Positions 23,132 to 29,917 of a stretch of DNA of 32,665 bases are shown one piece after another. The notes below the pieces were generated by a model that did no database searches, was not told the origin of the DNA, and worked only from the letters and a program-made list of their open reading frames with translations. The DNA comes from Candidatus Eiseniibacteriota bacterium (lineage in GTDB: Bacteria; Eisenbacteria; RBG-16-71-46; JACRLI01). The stretch covers positions 1-32,665 of the forward strand of contig JANXVU010000157.1 of the NCBI GenBank assembly GCA_025351485.1, written 5' to 3'. The translations under genes were made by a program, and so were the position numbers. How positions within the stretch are numbered: the stretch's first letter is position 1; each line of letters starts with the position of its first letter.

Positions 23132-26100
23132 ATGACTCCGTTCACCCGACTTTGGAAACCTTTCCTGGGCGTTTCCGCCGCCGCAGTGGCGCTCCTCGTC
23201 CTCGTGGCGAACGCAACTGCAGCCCGCATCCACGAACCGTCCAGCCGGGTCGGACAGGTTTCCAACCTTGCGAAGGCACGCGTCGCCACTCCCAATCATG
23301 TCAACTCCGCGCCCGCGGTAACGGCCGCCAACATTGCGTGGGCCGGTAGCGGCAACGGCAGCACGGTGCTCGACGCATTTCCGCACAGCTACACCTTCGG
23401 AACGGACGGCTTTGCCACCATCCAGGAAGCCATCGACGCGGTGGCCCCGGGCGGCACGGTCTACGTCTACCCCGGCACCTACAGCGAGACGGCATCGGCC
23501 CGCACGCCCGCCTACATCCCGGGCTTGTACAACTTCGGGCTGTTCTTCTCGGTCGCCCAGGGTGCCCTGCATCTCGAGGGCGTGGACGCCGCGCGCAACC
23601 CGGTTCTTTCGGCAGCCGGCGCGCTGGCCACGATCAAGACGAACTCCGACGCCAACTTCGGCCCCGATGGGTTCTACATCGAGGGTGACGGCGTGACCAT
23701 CGAGGGCGTGCGGCTCGGCACCAACTCGCTCGGCCAGAACAAGACCGCCGAAATAAGCGGCGACAACTTCACGTTGAAGAACTGCGACCTGGCCGACATC
23801 GGCGGGTCCATCTACTTCAACGACATGGCGTACGATGTCGGGACCAGCACCTCGCACATCCAGACCTACACCATCCAGGGCAACAATTTCCAGGATGGAT
23901 TGAGCATCGACCTCACCAGTGGCGCGGGCTATTCCGGACCGCCCAGCGGCCGCGTCGTGACCGGCAACACGTTCACCAACCTGGCCGGCTCCTACTGGCC
24001 GTGCATCAGCTTCAACGGCTCCGGCACCGGCGTGCCGTGGTTCGTGTACTCGGTGGGTGGGGCGGTCATCACCGGCAACACGTTCATCAACGCCGATCCC
24101 ACCGGGCAGCACATCCGCGCCCGGGGCACGTACGACAATTCCCAGTTCGACTGGGCCTCCTACTTCAACGGGAACAACTACAACAAGGCCGTGTGCGTCG
24201 GTCCGGCCCCTCCGGCGAATCTCGAAACCTACTCCTACGTGGGTTTCTATGGCACGTACAACACCGTCCGCCGCATCGGCGCCATCATCCAGGGCGAGGT
24301 GGACCACGGCCTCGCGGGTGACCAGGTGCTGGTCAAGGGCGGAACCTACGTGGAGCAGGTGGCCGTCGACGGCAGGAACCTGACCATCCAGGGCGCCGGC
24401 CGCACCTCGACGATCATCAAGTCGCCGGCGATGCTGGCCACCCAGTTCACCACCAGCGGCCCGAACAAGCCGGTGCTGTTCTGCGCCAACGCCGCGGACA
24501 TCGAGGTTAAGGACCTCACCGTGGACGGCGACGGCCAGGGCAACGCCAACTACCGCATCTACGGAGTTGCGTACTGGAACGCCGGGGGCAAGCTCCTCAA
24601 CTGCGACGTGGTGCACGTACGCGAAACGCCTTTCAACGGCGACCAGCACGGCGTGGGCATCTTTGGCGGCACCAACACCACGCCCTTCTCGCTCGAAGTC
24701 GGAGGCGTCAATGTCACCGACTTCCAGAAGAACGGAACGGTGTTCACCGGCGCCGGCTATAGCGTCAACATGCACGACTGCACCGTCACCGGTCAGGGCA
24801 TGACGCCGCTCAACGCCGAGAACGGGATTGAGTACATCAACGGAGCCGCCGGCAGCATCACCAACTGCGCGGTCTCCGGGTCGTACTACACGGGACCCAC
24901 CTACACGGCCACCGGCCTGCTCCTTTACAGCGCGGGCACGGTCAATGTGTCCGGCGGCTCGATCACGGGCTGCCAGTCGGCTGCCTACTTCATCGACTGC
25001 AACGGCTCGGTGGCGGGATCGAGCCTCTCCACCCCGACGCTCGGGGGCATCGGCGCCTGGGGCGTCCTCAGCTACAACAGCCAGTTGACCCTGCTCGCCA
25101 CGAGCCGGCCGCTGGGGGCGAGCGCCTCCACGCGGCCGATGGGCGTGAGCGCCTCCGCACGTCCGCTGCCCCAGCCCATGGACGCCGGCGTGTCCCAGAA
25201 AGGAATGCGCCCGCAGTCCATCGGATCCGCCCCGCTCTCTCTCACCGTCACGGGCGGATGCATGACCGGCCCGGGCGGTACCCCGGGGAACGGCTCCGAA
25301 GGAGTGGACGTCTTCTCCGAGGGCGCGGGTCTCAACGCCACCATCACCGGCGTCGAGATCAGCGGCTGGGACTGGGGCATCGGCTCCGGTGGCCCGGGCG
25401 GTGTTGCGGTGAATGCGAACCACAACTCGCTCACCGGCAACCTCACCGCCGGCTATGACAACTACGCCCCGCTGGTGAACACCAACACCAACCTCGCCCA
25501 GCTGAACTGGTGGGGCAACGCGGGCGGTCCCGGCGTGGGTGGAGCGAACCCGGTCGTGGGCGCCGCCGTGGTTTCGGCCCCGTGGCTGATCACGGGCACC
25601 GACGCCAACCCGGGCTGCGGCTTTGCGCCGCTGGCCGACAACACCGTCAGCGTCGGACCGGCGCCGAGCTGCATCTCGGTGCTCAACGACTGCGTCACCA
25701 TCCCGGTGAACATCGCGCGCACCACCTCGGACAACGTCCGCGGCTACAGCGTGAAGCTGACCCTGTCCTCGAACCTGGCGCTATGCACCGGCCCCGGCAG
25801 TGTCACCCAGGGCACGTACCTGTCTGCGGTGAGCGGGACCAGTTTCCAGGTGAGCGGCACCTACCCGAACTACACGGTGGACTGCGCCATCCTGGGCACG
25901 CCCTGCGGCGCCACGGCGGCGACGGGTAACCTGTTTAACCTGGGCGTGAAGAAGAACGGCCCGGACGGAACCGGCACCATCACTATTACCCTGGTCAAGC
26001 TGCGTGACTGTGCCAACGGCCCGGTGGCCGCCACCGCGGGTGCGCCGCTGAGCATCACGATCGACGCCGACGGACCGGTGGCGATCGCCAACCTGGGCGC

Positions 26101-27352
26101 CGCGCAGGTGACCTCGGGCAACAGCCACCTGGTGGACACGACCGGGGTGACGATCACTTTCACGGCTCCTGGCGACGGGATCACCCGCGAGGTGTACCGC
26201 GCTCCGTGGGGCGGCGGCGCCGGCGGCAGCTACCCGCTGTACACCGGCTCGGCTCCCTCGGTCCCCGGTTCCTACCCGCCGGGCGGCCCGTGGACCCTCT
26301 CGCCGGTCACGACCACCGGTGGCGTCGACCACCCGCCGGTGCGCGGCTGGTGGTACTACGTGGTGTACACCAAGGACGCCTGCGGCAACGTCTCGGCGGT
26401 CTCCAACATGACCGGCGGGTGCCTGAACTACTTCCTGGGCGACGTGGCCAACGGCTGGCCGTTCCCGGGCAAGGGCGACAACCTGGTCAACACGGTTGAC
26501 ATCTCGGCCCTGGGCAGCCACTACGGCACGTCTTCGGCCGGGTTCCTCTACCTGGATGTCGGTCCCACGACCACCTTCCTGCCGAGCGGCCGGCCGGTGC
26601 CGGACGCGATGATCGACTTCGAGGACCTGATCATCTTCTCGATCAACTACGGGGCGGTCAGCAAGCCGGGGATCCTCACCGGTCCGCGCTCGGCCTCGGA
26701 CGTGCTCCGCACGGAAGTCTCCGAGGACGGCGGGGTGGTCACGGCCCGGCTGGGCTTTGAAGGCACCGGAAGGGTCCAGGGCATCTCGACCCGGTTCACG
26801 TGGAACCCGAAGGTGGTCGAGCCGACCGGCTATGCGGCGGGCTCGATGCTGGACTCGCAGAACGGGGTGGCGTTCTCGCCGGCGCCGGGCGCGGTGGACG
26901 CGGCTCTTCTGGGCGCGCGCACGCTGGGCCTGACCGGCACGGGGACGCTGGCCACGGTCACCTTCCGCCGGATCGGCGAGGGCGACCCTGGGATCGCGCT
27001 GGCCAGGGCGGACGCGCGTGACTCGAACAACCAACCGGTGGAGCTGGGCAAGGTGGTCCGTGGCGTGGCGGGCGCGGCGACGCGGCTGAATGCTCCGGCC
27101 CCGAACCCGTTCCGCAGCGGCACGACGCTGAACTACAGCATGGCGACGCGCGGCTCGGCGGAGCTGTCGATCTACTCGGTGGACGGCCACCGGATCCGCA
27201 CGCTGTACAAGGGCACCCGGGAGGCCGGCAGCTACAGCGGATCCTGGGACGGTCGTGACGAAGCCGGCCGGACGGTCGGGCAGGGCGTGTTCTTCGCCCG
27301 GCTCCTCACCGCCCAGGGCAGCTTCTCCAGGACCCTGACCTTCCTGAAATAG
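23132..27352 (+). CDS. Very large secreted beta-helix protein with cohesin-like, dockerin-like and FlgD-like C-terminal modules
   Basis: A 1406-residue exported protein. ATG 23132 is preceded by AAGGAGGT and opens a signal peptide (1-31, ending ANATA). A parallel beta-helix (pectate-lyase/NosD-like) runs from about 85 to 830, starting at FATIQEAIDAVAPGGTVYVY and continuing with repeated 'v.GNtf.n' and 'itnC.v.Gs' turns. It is interrupted at about 655-690 by a Ser-Arg-Pro-Leu repeat. Next come a cohesin-like domain (about 836-980, YSVKLTLSSNLALC), an FN3-like domain (about 980-1095), a dockerin-like pair of EF-hand loops (about 1103-1174, GDNLVNTVDISALGSHYG and AMIDFEDLIIFSINYG), a second cohesin-like domain (about 1190-1310) and a FlgD-Ig-like tail (about 1315-1406, NPFRSGTTLNYS, then SWDGRDEAGR). 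The tail is of the type used as a secretion or surface-sorting signal. The role may be adhesion or polysaccharide binding; no catalytic residues are evident. Confidence 0.85.
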   Translation: MTPFTRLWKPFLGVSAAAVALLVLVANATAARIHEPSSRVGQVSNLAKARVATPNHVNSAPAVTAANIAWAGSGNGSTVLDAFPHSYTFGTDGFATIQEAIDAVAPGGTVYVYPGTYSETASARTPAYIPGLYNFGLFFSVAQGALHLEGVDAARNPVLSAAGALATIKTNSDANFGPDGFYIEGDGVTIEGVRLGTNSLGQNKTAEISGDNFTLKNCDLADIGGSIYFNDMAYDVGTSTSHIQTYTIQGNNFQDGLSIDLTSGAGYSGPPSGRVVTGNTFTNLAGSYWPCISFNGSGTGVPWFVYSVGGAVITGNTFINADPTGQHIRARGTYDNSQFDWASYFNGNNYNKAVCVGPAPPANLETYSYVGFYGTYNTVRRIGAIIQGEVDHGLAGDQVLVKGGTYVEQVAVDGRNLTIQGAGRTSTIIKSPAMLATQFTTSGPNKPVLFCANAADIEVKDLTVDGDGQGNANYRIYGVAYWNAGGKLLNCDVVHVRETPFNGDQHGVGIFGGTNTTPFSLEVGGVNVTDFQKNGTVFTGAGYSVNMHDCTVTGQGMTPLNAENGIEYINGAAGSITNCAVSGSYYTGPTYTATGLLLYSAGTVNVSGGSITGCQSAAYFIDCNGSVAGSSLSTPTLGGIGAWGVLSYNSQLTLLATSRPLGASASTRPMGVSASARPLPQPMDAGVSQKGMRPQSIGSAPLSLTVTGGCMTGPGGTPGNGSEGVDVFSEGAGLNATITGVEISGWDWGIGSGGPGGVAVNANHNSLTGNLTAGYDNYAPLVNTNTNLAQLNWWGNAGGPGVGGANPVVGAAVVSAPWLITGTDANPGCGFAPLADNTVSVGPAPSCISVLNDCVTIPVNIARTTSDNVRGYSVKLTLSSNLALCTGPGSVTQGTYLSAVSGTSFQVSGTYPNYTVDCAILGTPCGATAATGNLFNLGVKKNGPDGTGTITITLVKLRDCANGPVAATAGAPLSITIDADGPVAIANLGAAQVTSGNSHLVDTTGVTITFTAPGDGITREVYRAPWGGGAGGSYPLYTGSAPSVPGSYPPGGPWTLSPVTTTGGVDHPPVRGWWYYVVYTKDACGNVSAVSNMTGGCLNYFLGDVANGWPFPGKGDNLVNTVDISALGSHYGTSSAGFLYLDVGPTTTFLPSGRPVPDAMIDFEDLIIFSINYGAVSKPGILTGPRSASDVLRTEVSEDGGVVTARLGFEGTGRVQGISTRFTWNPKVVEPTGYAAGSMLDSQNGVAFSPAPGAVDAALLGARTLGLTGTGTLATVTFRRIGEGDPGIALARADARDSNNQPVELGKVVRGVAGAATRLNAPAPNPFRSGTTLNYSMATRGSAELSIYSVDGHRIRTLYKGTREAGSYSGSWDGRDEAGRTVGQGVFFARLLTAQGSFSRTLTFLK
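25103..25172 (+). repeat. 27-bp tandem repeat encoding SRPLGASAS-type units
   Basis: Two full 27-base units (25103-25129, SRPLGASAS; 25130-25156, TRPMGVSAS) and a partial third (ARPLPQP) follow one another in frame. They sit in the beta-helix of the large secreted protein and read as a flexible loop, unlike the surrounding Gly/Asn/Thr-rich coils. Confidence 0.75.
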
Positions 27353-27502: not shown

Positions 27503-29917
27503 CTACCGCACCATCACCAGTTTGCGCGTGAGCACGTCGCCGCCCGAGGCCAGGCGGTAGAAGTACACGCCGCCCGCGACCGCGCGGCCGGCCGCGTCGC
27601 GCCCATCCCAGCGGGCCTCGTGCGCGCCGGCCGTAACCGATCCGCTCGCCAGCCTTCGAACGAGCCTGCCGCCCAGGTCGTACACGTCAAGGCTCACCGG
27701 GCGGGTGGTGGGGAGCGAGTAGCGGATCAGGGCCGTGCCGCGGGTGGGGTTGGGCAGACTCTGAAGTAGCGAGACCTGTCGCGGATTCACGCCGCCTCCG
27801 ATCCCCAGCACCGCCGTGCCGCCCGACTCCTTGTAGCGGGCCCAGAACTCCTGGAAGTACACATTGGCGATGTTGTAGTCGTGGATCACCACGGTGTTCT
27901 CGTCGTTGGTGGTGTTGGCGGCGTTGCTGAAATTGTGGGAGCCGGTCATCACCACCGGGTTCTGCTGTCCCTCGTCCAGGATCTGGTACTTGTGGTGCAG
28001 CAGGGAGAACACCGTCGACCCGTCCTGCAGGACGTCCGCGCGCGGGTTCCAATAGTCGGCGCAGGAAGCCTGCCCGTCCAGCTTGCACCACTCCGAGAAG
28101 GCGTCGATCGAGGAAGGCTCGAAGCAACCGCGCACCACGTACCCGGGGATCGAGTCGCGGTGCGCCTTCATGGAATGGCTCAGCGAGTCGCTGGTGAAAT
28201 CCAGGATGCAGAATTGGTCCGAGAACTGCGACTGCCAGATGTTCTCGATCATGTGTTTCTCGGTCTTGTCGCTGGGGCTCATGTACACCTGGATCGGGAT
28301 CCCGCCCACCAGGTACTGGTGGAAGATCACGTCCACCTTGCGCGATCCCATCTTGGAGGCGTTGCCGTCCGGCACCGTAGTGGCGCTGCCCCACATCTGG
28401 TTGAAGTCGCCGGTGTAGGCCTGCGCCACGCCATAGTCGTGGATAACCAGGGTGTTGTTGCAGTCGCTTTGCCCCGAAACGGAGCAGTTCCAGGAACCGG
28501 TCCACACGTACGCGTCGTCCTTGTTGCCCGTGTTGGCGTCGATCGCCAGGTATTTGCTGTGCATGATGCCGAAGGTCTGCGCCTGTCCGTGGTTCCCGGC
28601 GTAGGTGCTGGTGATGTAGGGAATCCCGTTGGTCTGCAGCCGGGTGGCCTGGGTGGTGGAGTTGCCGGCGTCCTGGATCAGGCGCACCGTCACGCCCCGC
28701 GCGTGGGCGGCAATGAGCGCGTCCGCCACGTCCGACAGGCTGAAGCTGTACAGGGCGCAATCCAGGGACGACTTGGCGGCGTTGATCCGGTTGATCAGTT
28801 GCTGGTGCACGTCCACGTTGCCCTGGGCCTTCGGGACGCCGACCCTGGCCACGGTGGTGTCCACGCTGAAGTTGAAGTAGAGGGCGATGTCACCCGGCGT
28901 GCCCGGCGAGGGGTAAGTCACCAGCACCTGGTCCGGGTAAGCGCAGGTCCCGGCGCCGTCGGTGGACTTGGCCGAGAAGTGGTACACGGTGCGCGGCGAA
29001 AGCCCGGTCAGGGAAAGCGTGTGCACGGTGATGAGCGTGGCATCCGTCACGCTGTCCGTGTAGGCGCCGGTGAGCCCATAGCGCAGGGTCGAACTGGACG
29101 GGGTGTCGGTGCCCCAGGTGATGGTGGCGGCGAGGCTGTCGATGTAGACCACCGCCGGCACGGAGACATAGGTGGGCCCGGGGCAGGCCGGCGCCACGTC
29201 GCTCTTGAACCGCGGGATGATCTCGTAGCCCGTGGTGTAGGGACTGGTGCTGTCGAACTGCTTGATGATCCCGACCACGTCGAACTTGGCGCCCGGGTCG
29301 GGCGAGCCGTTCAGCGGGCAGGCCTTGGGAATGAACAGCGTGGTGGAGCCGGTGGAGTCGGCGATGGTCAGGGTCACGTTGACCGAGCCGGCAGAGACCG
29401 GCCACGAGCCCGCGGTGATGTGCACGCCCGAAAGGCGCAGCAGCCGCCCCTCCAGGCCGTCGTGGTTGTCCGCCTTGTAGGCGTTGGCGACGTCAAAACA
29501 GTGGTAGTTGAGCGGTTCCGGATTGACCGTGGCCGGTCCCAGGTGGGTCACGATCAGTTGGGCCACGGACGAGTCGATCTCGGCGGTGCCGTTGAAGTGC
29601 TTGACGAAACCGCTCACCTGGACGCTGTCCCCGTAACCGAAGTGGAACGACCCGATGCCGGCGGAAGCGAACACGTTGCAACCGCCCGAGGCGTCCATGA
29701 TCCACACGTCGGTGTTGGTGACGCTGGAAATGGAATCCGGGGCCACCACGGTGCCCTGCACCGTGATGCGCCGGCGCGGCAGCTGCGTGGCCAGGACCGG
29801 GATGCCGTTGGAACTGTTGTAGTGAAGGCTGTCGATCGGGGTGATGAGCTGGGCCCTGGCCCCGCCCGCGCAAAACGGCAGCAGCAGCAGGCCAAAGAGA
29901 ACACGGGCAAGTCGCAT
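27503..29917 (-). CDS. Secreted phospholipase-D-superfamily protein with OB-fold-like N-terminus and FlgD-like tail
   Basis: An 804-residue exported protein. It has a signal peptide (1-22, ending GGARA), then OB-fold-like segments (about 48-130 and 150-240, with ITVQGTVVAPDS and FDVVGIIKQFDS), as in secreted nucleases of the YhcR type. An FN3-like domain (about 250-337, ITWGTDTPSSSTLRYG) is followed by a phospholipase-D catalytic region (about 368-695) with both HKD motifs intact: His453-Lys455-Asp460 (HSKYLAID, then TGSWN) and His641-Lys643-Asp648 (HHKYQILD, then TGSHNFS). A FlgD-Ig-like tail (about 715-804, PNPTRGTALIRYSL, RWDGRDAAGRAVAGGVYFYR) follows. The OB-fold neighbours suggest a phosphodiesterase acting on nucleic acid at least as much as on lipid. 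ATG 29917 has AGAGGAGA upstream. It is convergent with the beta-helix gene, whose tail is of the same type. Confidence 0.88.
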   Translation of the reverse strand: MRLARVLFGLLLLPFCAGGARAQLITPIDSLHYNSSNGIPVLATQLPRRRITVQGTVVAPDSISSVTNTDVWIMDASGGCNVFASAGIGSFHFGYGDSVQVSGFVKHFNGTAEIDSSVAQLIVTHLGPATVNPEPLNYHCFDVANAYKADNHDGLEGRLLRLSGVHITAGSWPVSAGSVNVTLTIADSTGSTTLFIPKACPLNGSPDPGAKFDVVGIIKQFDSTSPYTTGYEIIPRFKSDVAPACPGPTYVSVPAVVYIDSLAATITWGTDTPSSSTLRYGLTGAYTDSVTDATLITVHTLSLTGLSPRTVYHFSAKSTDGAGTCAYPDQVLVTYPSPGTPGDIALYFNFSVDTTVARVGVPKAQGNVDVHQQLINRINAAKSSLDCALYSFSLSDVADALIAAHARGVTVRLIQDAGNSTTQATRLQTNGIPYITSTYAGNHGQAQTFGIMHSKYLAIDANTGNKDDAYVWTGSWNCSVSGQSDCNNTLVIHDYGVAQAYTGDFNQMWGSATTVPDGNASKMGSRKVDVIFHQYLVGGIPIQVYMSPSDKTEKHMIENIWQSQFSDQFCILDFTSDSLSHSMKAHRDSIPGYVVRGCFEPSSIDAFSEWCKLDGQASCADYWNPRADVLQDGSTVFSLLHHKYQILDEGQQNPVVMTGSHNFSNAANTTNDENTVVIHDYNIANVYFQEFWARYKESGGTAVLGIGGGVNPRQVSLLQSLPNPTRGTALIRYSLPTTRPVSLDVYDLGGRLVRRLASGSVTAGAHEARWDGRDAAGRAVAGGVYFYRLASGGDVLTRKLVMVR

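Follow-up and report, generated by a model that had tools for sequence, protein, structure and literature searches.

Can cohesins and dockerins also serve to build a bacterial cell surface, with no enzyme involved? Few known non-covalent protein complexes are as tight as cohesin-dockerin pairs, which have been investigated mainly in cellulose degraders. The question is raised by one gene of Candidatus Eiseniibacteriota bacterium (assembly GCA_025351485.1), which lies at 23132..27352 (+ strand, as do all features of this gene given below) of the 32,665-nucleotide stretch of contig JANXVU010000157.1 analysed here (hereafter the window). According to the list of open reading frames and the translation, it encodes a multidomain protein of 1406 residues that is probably secreted. 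A preliminary description had read in this protein a beta-helix, then cohesin-, FN3-, dockerin- and again cohesin-like modules and a FlgD-like tail, and had proposed that copies of it might assemble head to tail. On the basis of current results, we read it as a surface protein without enzymatic function that resembles scaffoldins and uses its dockerin to attach to separate, anchored cohesins. The binding is putative, and we give this reading a probability of about 45%.

Cohesins and a divergent dockerin in one chain

Two domains of the window protein are cohesins, the first (C1) by fold and profile and the second (C2) by its profile match to solved cohesins. C2 (residues 1183-1310; 26678..27061) matches Pfam Cohesin (PF00963) over residues 1198-1279 with E 1.3e-4 and 22.6 bits, below the cut-off of 24.1; the cut-off is passed by the C2 of three of the six relatives scanned whole (loci L039, L043 and L047, with 45.2, 35.5 and 38.1 bits). 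When the C2 family profile was compared with the Protein Data Bank (PDB), the best match had E 1.7e-8 and 31 of the 32 sequences up to E 1 were cohesin or scaffoldin chains by name or entry title. C1 (residues 834-981; 25631..26074) has no PF00963 match in the window protein; that of a paralogue on contig C150 of the same genome passes the Pfam cut-off with 30.5 bits, and the C1 and C2 profiles align to each other (E 3.3e-9). In a model of residues 829-1406 (the module model), obtained from a 33-sequence alignment with a mean predicted local distance difference test score (pLDDT) of 89.8 and a predicted template modelling score of 0.71, the fold of C1 resembles solved cohesins, the best match being 6kgc_A (Z 16.0, root-mean-square deviation (rmsd) 2.2, 134 residues aligned). 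Two further chains, 4fl4_I and 3kcp_A, were aligned between model residues 5 and 351 and between 8 and 351 (first-last; Z 15.6 and 15.4; 197 and 195 residues; rmsd 6.3 and 6.7), ends that correspond to the start of C1 and the end of the dockerin-like domain. Because such ranges give the ends only, most of the aligned residues may belong to C1; the fold search with the whole module was filled by C1 and barely probed C2 and the FN3-like and dockerin parts.

The dockerin-like domain (residues 1090-1180; 26399..26671) was recognized by profile. None of its 33 homologues matches the dockerin models of Pfam, Dockerin type I (PF00404) included, and its profile found nothing significant in the PDB; two matches at E 0.5 and 0.68 were both type II cohesin-X-dockerin entries. 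In its sequence, two F-hand repeats with Asp-rich loops can be seen, and the first half of the domain aligns to the second (E 2.5e-4). The first calcium-loop-like segment, D1104-D1123 (26441..26500), has about eight extra residues before D1116 by column counts and the dockerin alignment; the second, D1142-D1165 (26555..26626), has about 12 before D1158 by column counts and the alignment with inserts removed. The loops thus depart from the canonical 12-residue spacing by these additional residues between loop positions 1 and 5. D1104, D1123, D1142 and D1158 are invariant in the 33 homologues and D1116 and D1165 are common (D in 25 and 31, respectively), giving a family consensus of DNxVxxxD followed by DNxVxFED, each with a helix after it (293-301 and 335-343 in the module model).

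For comparison with canonical dockerins, we used 30 of the 44 Dockerin_1 matches found in the class genomes. The hhalign score against this set was 25.7, whereas the maxima of 200 template and 200 query shuffles were 15.6 and 19.6. After deletion of both loop inserts from the profile, the score rose to 38.6 (E 1.4e-7) and both repeats were spanned; this comparison was made post hoc, and its score was equalled by 3 of 120 random two-block deletions, the best of 120 column shuffles reaching 16.7. Because the profile alignment to canonical dockerins exceeds 400 of 400 column shuffles, we call the domain, at the level of sequence profiles, a divergent dockerin with enlarged calcium loops, which is not a member of Dockerin_1.

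Between C1 and the dockerin lies an FN3-like or X-module-like domain (residues 978-1094; 26063..26413), which is conserved in the alignment and present in the module model. Its identity as FN3 is weakly supported: none of 26 homologues matches the fn3 models, and nothing significant was found with PDB profiles, the best being a chitinase A1 chain (E 0.055). With this weak point, the order of modules given in the preliminary description was borne out, and both halves of the interaction do stand in one chain, the cohesins by fold and profile and the dockerin by profile.

A fixed cassette in relatives and in the window genome

At residues 829-1406, C1, the FN3-like domain, the dockerin-like domain, C2 and a tail of the type IX secretion system (T9SS) follow one another as a cassette. 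Whole or partial matches to the stretch 829-1310 (482 residues) were found in 20 of the 39 genomes of the relatives search, window genome included. In a scan of contigs with one genome per species, 41 of the 68 pattern-matching stretches gave 39 distinct loci, 25 of them in Candidatus Eisenbacteria, 5 in Krumholzibacteriia/Krumholzibacteriota and 2 in Gemmatimonadota/Gemmatimonadetes. The dockerin profile matched in 23 of the 47 class genomes, and the fetched loci, which hold a subset of all dockerin-profile matches, contain 62 distinct dockerin genes.

Every one of these 62 genes has exactly one dockerin copy. C2 and the tail lie downstream of it in 61 genes, the remaining one being cut by the contig end, and the FN3-like domain lies upstream in 60. 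An upstream cohesin is present in 50 genes (one in 45, two in 3 and three in 2); among the 12 genes with no visible upstream cohesin, six are cut within 260 residues and six have 272-501 residues visible, with frames cut at the locus start.

The window genome contains four dockerin-profile copies: the window gene, two C150 genes and a piece on C145. The latter (query 186-477) and a C88 piece (query 10-183) appear to belong to a single gene split by a contig break. No enzyme domain was called on the window protein, on either C150 gene or on the contig-cut C145 and C88 pieces; enzymes with a matching dockerin, as expected around a cellulosome scaffoldin, were not found among the four dockerins of this genome. 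Two other dockerin genes were observed there: L167:3281-7975 (C46) carries Dockerin_1 over the cut-off together with PKD-like domains, and L168:1582-4341 (C142) a sub-threshold dockerin and a T9SS-type tail.

Stand-alone cohesin genes beside the cassette

When the loci were scanned with the cassette profiles, small separate cohesin genes were seen beside the cassette, first via the C2 profile. Two types could be distinguished. The T type consists of a cohesin and a T9SS tail, whereas the S type is a cohesin of mostly 185-240 residues without the tail, whose C-terminus reads WGxxKxxYR or similar. Both match C2 profile-to-profile (E 3e-18 for S and 9.3e-10 for T). At a score above 150, S genes occur in 14, T genes in 26 and either type in 27 of the 39 named loci (the S gene of L046 is weaker), although the profiles were made from 13 sequences each and, since all S and several T seeds come from the counted loci or the same contigs, those members score by construction.

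S and T genes share the strand of the cassette gene, and their stop-to-stop frames overlap the preceding frame by up to 834 bases or start up to 200 bases after its end. The order cassette-T was the most frequent (10 of 28 clusters, that of C150 included), next to cassette-S-T (9). For each cluster, this count takes the cassette closest to S or T; it omits additional cassette genes of L038, L040 and L057, an extra T gene of L050 and fragments.

The window genome has three T genes: one on C150, flanked by two cassette genes; one on C88, next to the contig-cut cassette piece; and one on C180, with no cassette. The search for other dockerin or cohesin genes that the preliminary description had suggested yielded, besides the window gene's own dockerin, the cassette dockerins on C150 and C145, these three stand-alone cohesins and the dockerin genes on C46 and C142. 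Some individual genes also deserve mention. Between the two cassette genes of C150, L083:9407-11608 encodes a fusion protein made up of a T-type cohesin, InlB B-type repeats (Flg_new_2) and a FlgD_ig/T9SS-type tail. L061:5467-6576 is a stand-alone S-type gene with two tandem cohesins and the C-terminus GWGAWKAQFGG. On C180, an 8-kb contig, the stand-alone cohesin-tail gene shares its surroundings with L169:5882-7957, a glycoside hydrolase family 9 (GH9) cellulase with CelD_N and a weak T9SS-type tail match, on which no dockerin was called.

A C-terminal motif across the class

A C-terminal pattern, WGx[LIVM][KR]xxYR directly before the stop, matched the DNA of the window genome 13 times, compared with 0 for the reversed control. 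Its bearers (loci L147-L159) lie on C21, C42, C47 (two), C60, C84, C91, C117, C129, C145, C163, C167 and C180. By eye, all 13 reading frames begin like signal peptides; their bodies are for the most part unrelated, those on C42 and C145 looking related to each other. In the 47 class genomes, 682 matches were counted versus 5 for the control, and 44 genomes have matches. One bearer carries the NCBIfam choice-of-anchor W domain. The motif, present on some stand-alone cohesins and class-wide, looks like an undescribed C-terminal sorting signal; a literature search on anchor domains and sorting signals, which was not aimed at the motif itself and left subscription journals mostly outside, returned one unrelated plant paper.

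The tail and the type IX export machinery

The last domain of the window protein (residues 1315-1406; 27074..27349) is a FlgD_ig-like T9SS C-terminal sorting domain. It scores 27.2 bits with Pfam FlgD_ig (cut-off 27) and 20.6 bits with TIGR04183 (Por_Secre_tail), under the cut-off of 23, and in the module model its fold resembles the C-terminal domain (CTD) of PorU (6za2_B; Z 12.0, 90 residues aligned). SprA is found in the window genome with 498 bits (cut-off 200) and in none of 14 control genomes; the PorU sortase reaches 439.2 bits (cut-off 420), a cut-off passed in none of the 14 controls. The PorU model has 51 matches in the window genome, most of them covering the C-terminal part only and representing other tail-bearing genes. 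The window protein thus has, as type A T9SS cargo should, a CTD, and the machinery is in the same genome.

The N-terminal region and neighbouring gene

Secretion of the protein is probable from a Sec-like signal peptide seen by eye at about residues 1-31 (23132..23224), with a basic start, a hydrophobic stretch and ANATAA. The region that follows (about residues 75-825; 23354..25606) is probably a right-handed beta-helix. It has a weak, partial NosD match (3.3e-5) and is 53% identical over 748 residues to the protein of L047, in whose N-terminal region Beta_helix matches were found. In the window protein itself no beta-helix was called by Pfam, which up to E 1 gave FlgD_ig, the sub-threshold Cohesin and nothing else. 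The N-terminus is homologous in 11 of the 39 other proteins compared (weakly so in L050), and the N-termini of relatives vary: of six scanned with Pfam, four have a beta-helix, L040 has FG-GAP repeats and L065 Ig repeats.

No catalytic Pfam domain was found in the window protein up to E 1. A pectinesterase match (E 0.033, residues 398-441) was considered as a sign of enzyme function and dismissed as beta-helix resemblance. Because both halves of the interaction are in one chain and an enzyme domain was not found, a structural or adhesive role fits, as the preliminary description had supposed. The convergent neighbour at 27503-29917 of the window (- strand) encodes a protein with two phospholipase-D-like stretches, whose T9SS-type tail passes the TIGR04183 cut-off.

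Proposed assembly and alternative explanations

In the arrangement that we favour, the T9SS would export the protein via its CTD, and the protein would be held at the surface with its N-terminal beta-helix displayed outward. The cohesin-FN3-dockerin-cohesin cassette beside the tail would be the assembly unit, whose enlarged-loop dockerin would dock, in a calcium-dependent manner, onto a cohesin anchored separately at the surface. As partners, the small stand-alone cohesins beside cassettes in relatives are likely and, in the window genome, those on C88, C150 and C180; C1 and C2 would be free for other copies that bear a dockerin or for paralogues. That stand-alone cohesin genes adjoin the cassette in 27 of the 39 loci and that three such genes are present in the window genome favours docking to separate, anchored cohesins. 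In this arrangement, binding, its calcium dependence, the choice of partner and the surface location are inferred.

Several results weigh against such docking. Twelve of the 39 named loci have no stand-alone cohesin gene at the score used, and none adjoins the window gene itself. Whereas cellulosomal dockerins are portable, the dockerin-like domain turned up only within the cassette, and its enlarged loops may not bind calcium. When modelled alone, it gave a poor model (mean pLDDT 65.8) with no fold match. The structure prediction proposed as a check in the preliminary description upheld the cohesin fold of C1 and found no match for the isolated dockerin, although a poor isolated model says nothing against an EF-hand fold. 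The C1 profile alone retrieved only two PDB matches, both fimbrial proteins (E 0.0033) and no cohesin, which we read as chance on one short stretch. Finally, the top two Foldseek rows for the whole module were the Ig-like adhesin chains 8beg_B and 6xi3 and not scaffoldins; the next rows were the cohesin-FN3 double module 2w1n (E 3.2e-9) and 3kcp_A (3.7e-9).

These adhesin rows speak for an explanation in which the cohesin-like and dockerin-like domains are mere fold relatives that act as spacers, and the protein is an ordinary T9SS-exported beta-helix adhesin. T9SS-type tails and beta-helices are common in the Fibrobacteres-Chlorobi-Bacteroidetes (FCB) group, which we count in its favour, and non-cellulosomal cohesin-like and dockerin-like modules are reportedly widespread. 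We consider it very unlikely, as the dockerin-like segment has the highest mean column identity of the three (62%, n=33, versus 51%, n=26, for C1 and 38%, n=33, for C2), which is odd for a spacer, and cohesin genes cluster beside it. A somewhat unlikely alternative is a rigid stalk, in which the dockerin-like domain would pack against another domain of its own chain (FN3-like, C1 or C2), be stabilized by calcium and never bind in trans. That the domain never occurs without C2 and the tail (apart from the gene cut by its contig end), that its ten-residue blocks have pLDDT 73-94 within the module model, compared with the poor value alone, and that P207, Y209, P214, W226 and R243 of the FN3-like domain are invariant would all agree with a stalk. 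However, the stand-alone cohesin genes would be left unexplained, and in the X module-dockerin (XDoc) pairs of known scaffoldins the X module packs on the dockerin with trans binding retained, which we count against a stalk.

Head-to-tail assembly, the idea of the preliminary description, would give surface fibres if the dockerin bound either cohesin, C1 or C2, of the next copy or of a paralogous protein. It draws on the co-occurrence of both halves in one chain throughout the genes examined; such co-occurrence is, however, known from scaffoldins and, taken alone, is no argument for self-assembly. The close spacing of paralogous cassettes, on C150 in the window genome and in relatives such as L038, and the two or three upstream cohesins in 5 of the 50 genes having one upstream are also in line with it. 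On the other hand, in the scaffoldins described from Acetivibrio cellulolyticus (PMC3413522), cohesins pair with dockerins of other proteins. As separate cohesin genes adjoin the cassette, self-assembly as the sole explanation was demoted to a rival, and we regard it as distinctly unlikely; it keeps some probability because, in the 62 genes examined, no dockerin was seen in a chain lacking a cohesin.

Beyond the window protein, we tentatively propose, as a possibility that we hold with some doubt, that Eisenbacteria and Krumholzibacteriota have an enzyme-free Gram-negative cohesin-dockerin surface architecture. Its operon would encode two kinds of product, large proteins for display, built as cohesin-FN3-dockerin-cohesin-T9SS tail, and small receptors with one cohesin each, the receptors being delivered by a T9SS domain or by the unnamed class-wide C-terminal WGx[LIVM][KR]xx[YF]R. 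If this is true, cohesin-dockerin coupling would also build cell surfaces, free of enzymes, in uncultured Gram-negative phyla, and a dockerin type overlooked by Pfam, with cohesin proteins encoded in shared gene clusters, would offer new orthogonal parts for protein engineering as well as a directly testable partner set.

Comparison with known systems

As in scaffoldins, cohesins and a dockerin are found here in one secreted chain, with secretion judged from the signal peptide seen by eye. The entries 4fl4 and 3kcp are presumably the C-terminal cohesin-X-dockerin trimodule of Clostridium thermocellum CipA. The cassette has a cohesin, an Ig-like X module and a dockerin in equal order, whereas the second cohesin and the T9SS tail after the dockerin and the enlarged dockerin loops set it apart from that trimodule. 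Unlike in CipA, no carbohydrate-binding module (CBM) was called in the window protein, and no enzyme with such a dockerin was found in the window genome. A literature search, with subscription journals mostly outside it, found no cohesin-dockerin or type IX secretion report for Eisenbacteria and no cohesin report for Krumholzibacteriota.

With regard to export, the window protein resembles the type A CTD cargo of Porphyromonas gingivalis and PorU (6za2) in having a C-terminal beta-sandwich sorting domain, with sortase and translocon in the genome (PMC9143113). It differs in belonging to another phylum and in a tail that stays under the TIGR04183 cut-off.

A cellulosome-like system has been described in Ca. 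Stygibacter (Cloacimonadota), where enzymes bear dockerins and a cohesin scaffold has a conserved C-terminal domain for surface attachment (PMC8542988). Dockerins, cohesins and such an attachment domain are common to both; however, the dockerins there are borne by enzymes and the scaffold has tandem cohesins and CBMs, whereas here both modules are joined to a beta-helix in one chain that has no enzyme. Chains that combine cohesins with a dockerin, as well as clustered scaffoldin genes, are also known from cellulosomes (PMC3413522). The sca cluster of A. cellulolyticus comprises four scaffoldin genes, some of them anchoring, and its scaffoldins include chains with both module types, as in our cassette. 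In contrast to that Gram-positive, cellulolytic organism with its anchoring by surface-layer homology (SLH) domains, the genes described here use T9SS tails or a short C-terminal motif. Relative to cellulosomes, three features are new: the enlarged loops of the dockerin, the fixed make-up of the cassette and the stand-alone cohesins encoded next to it.

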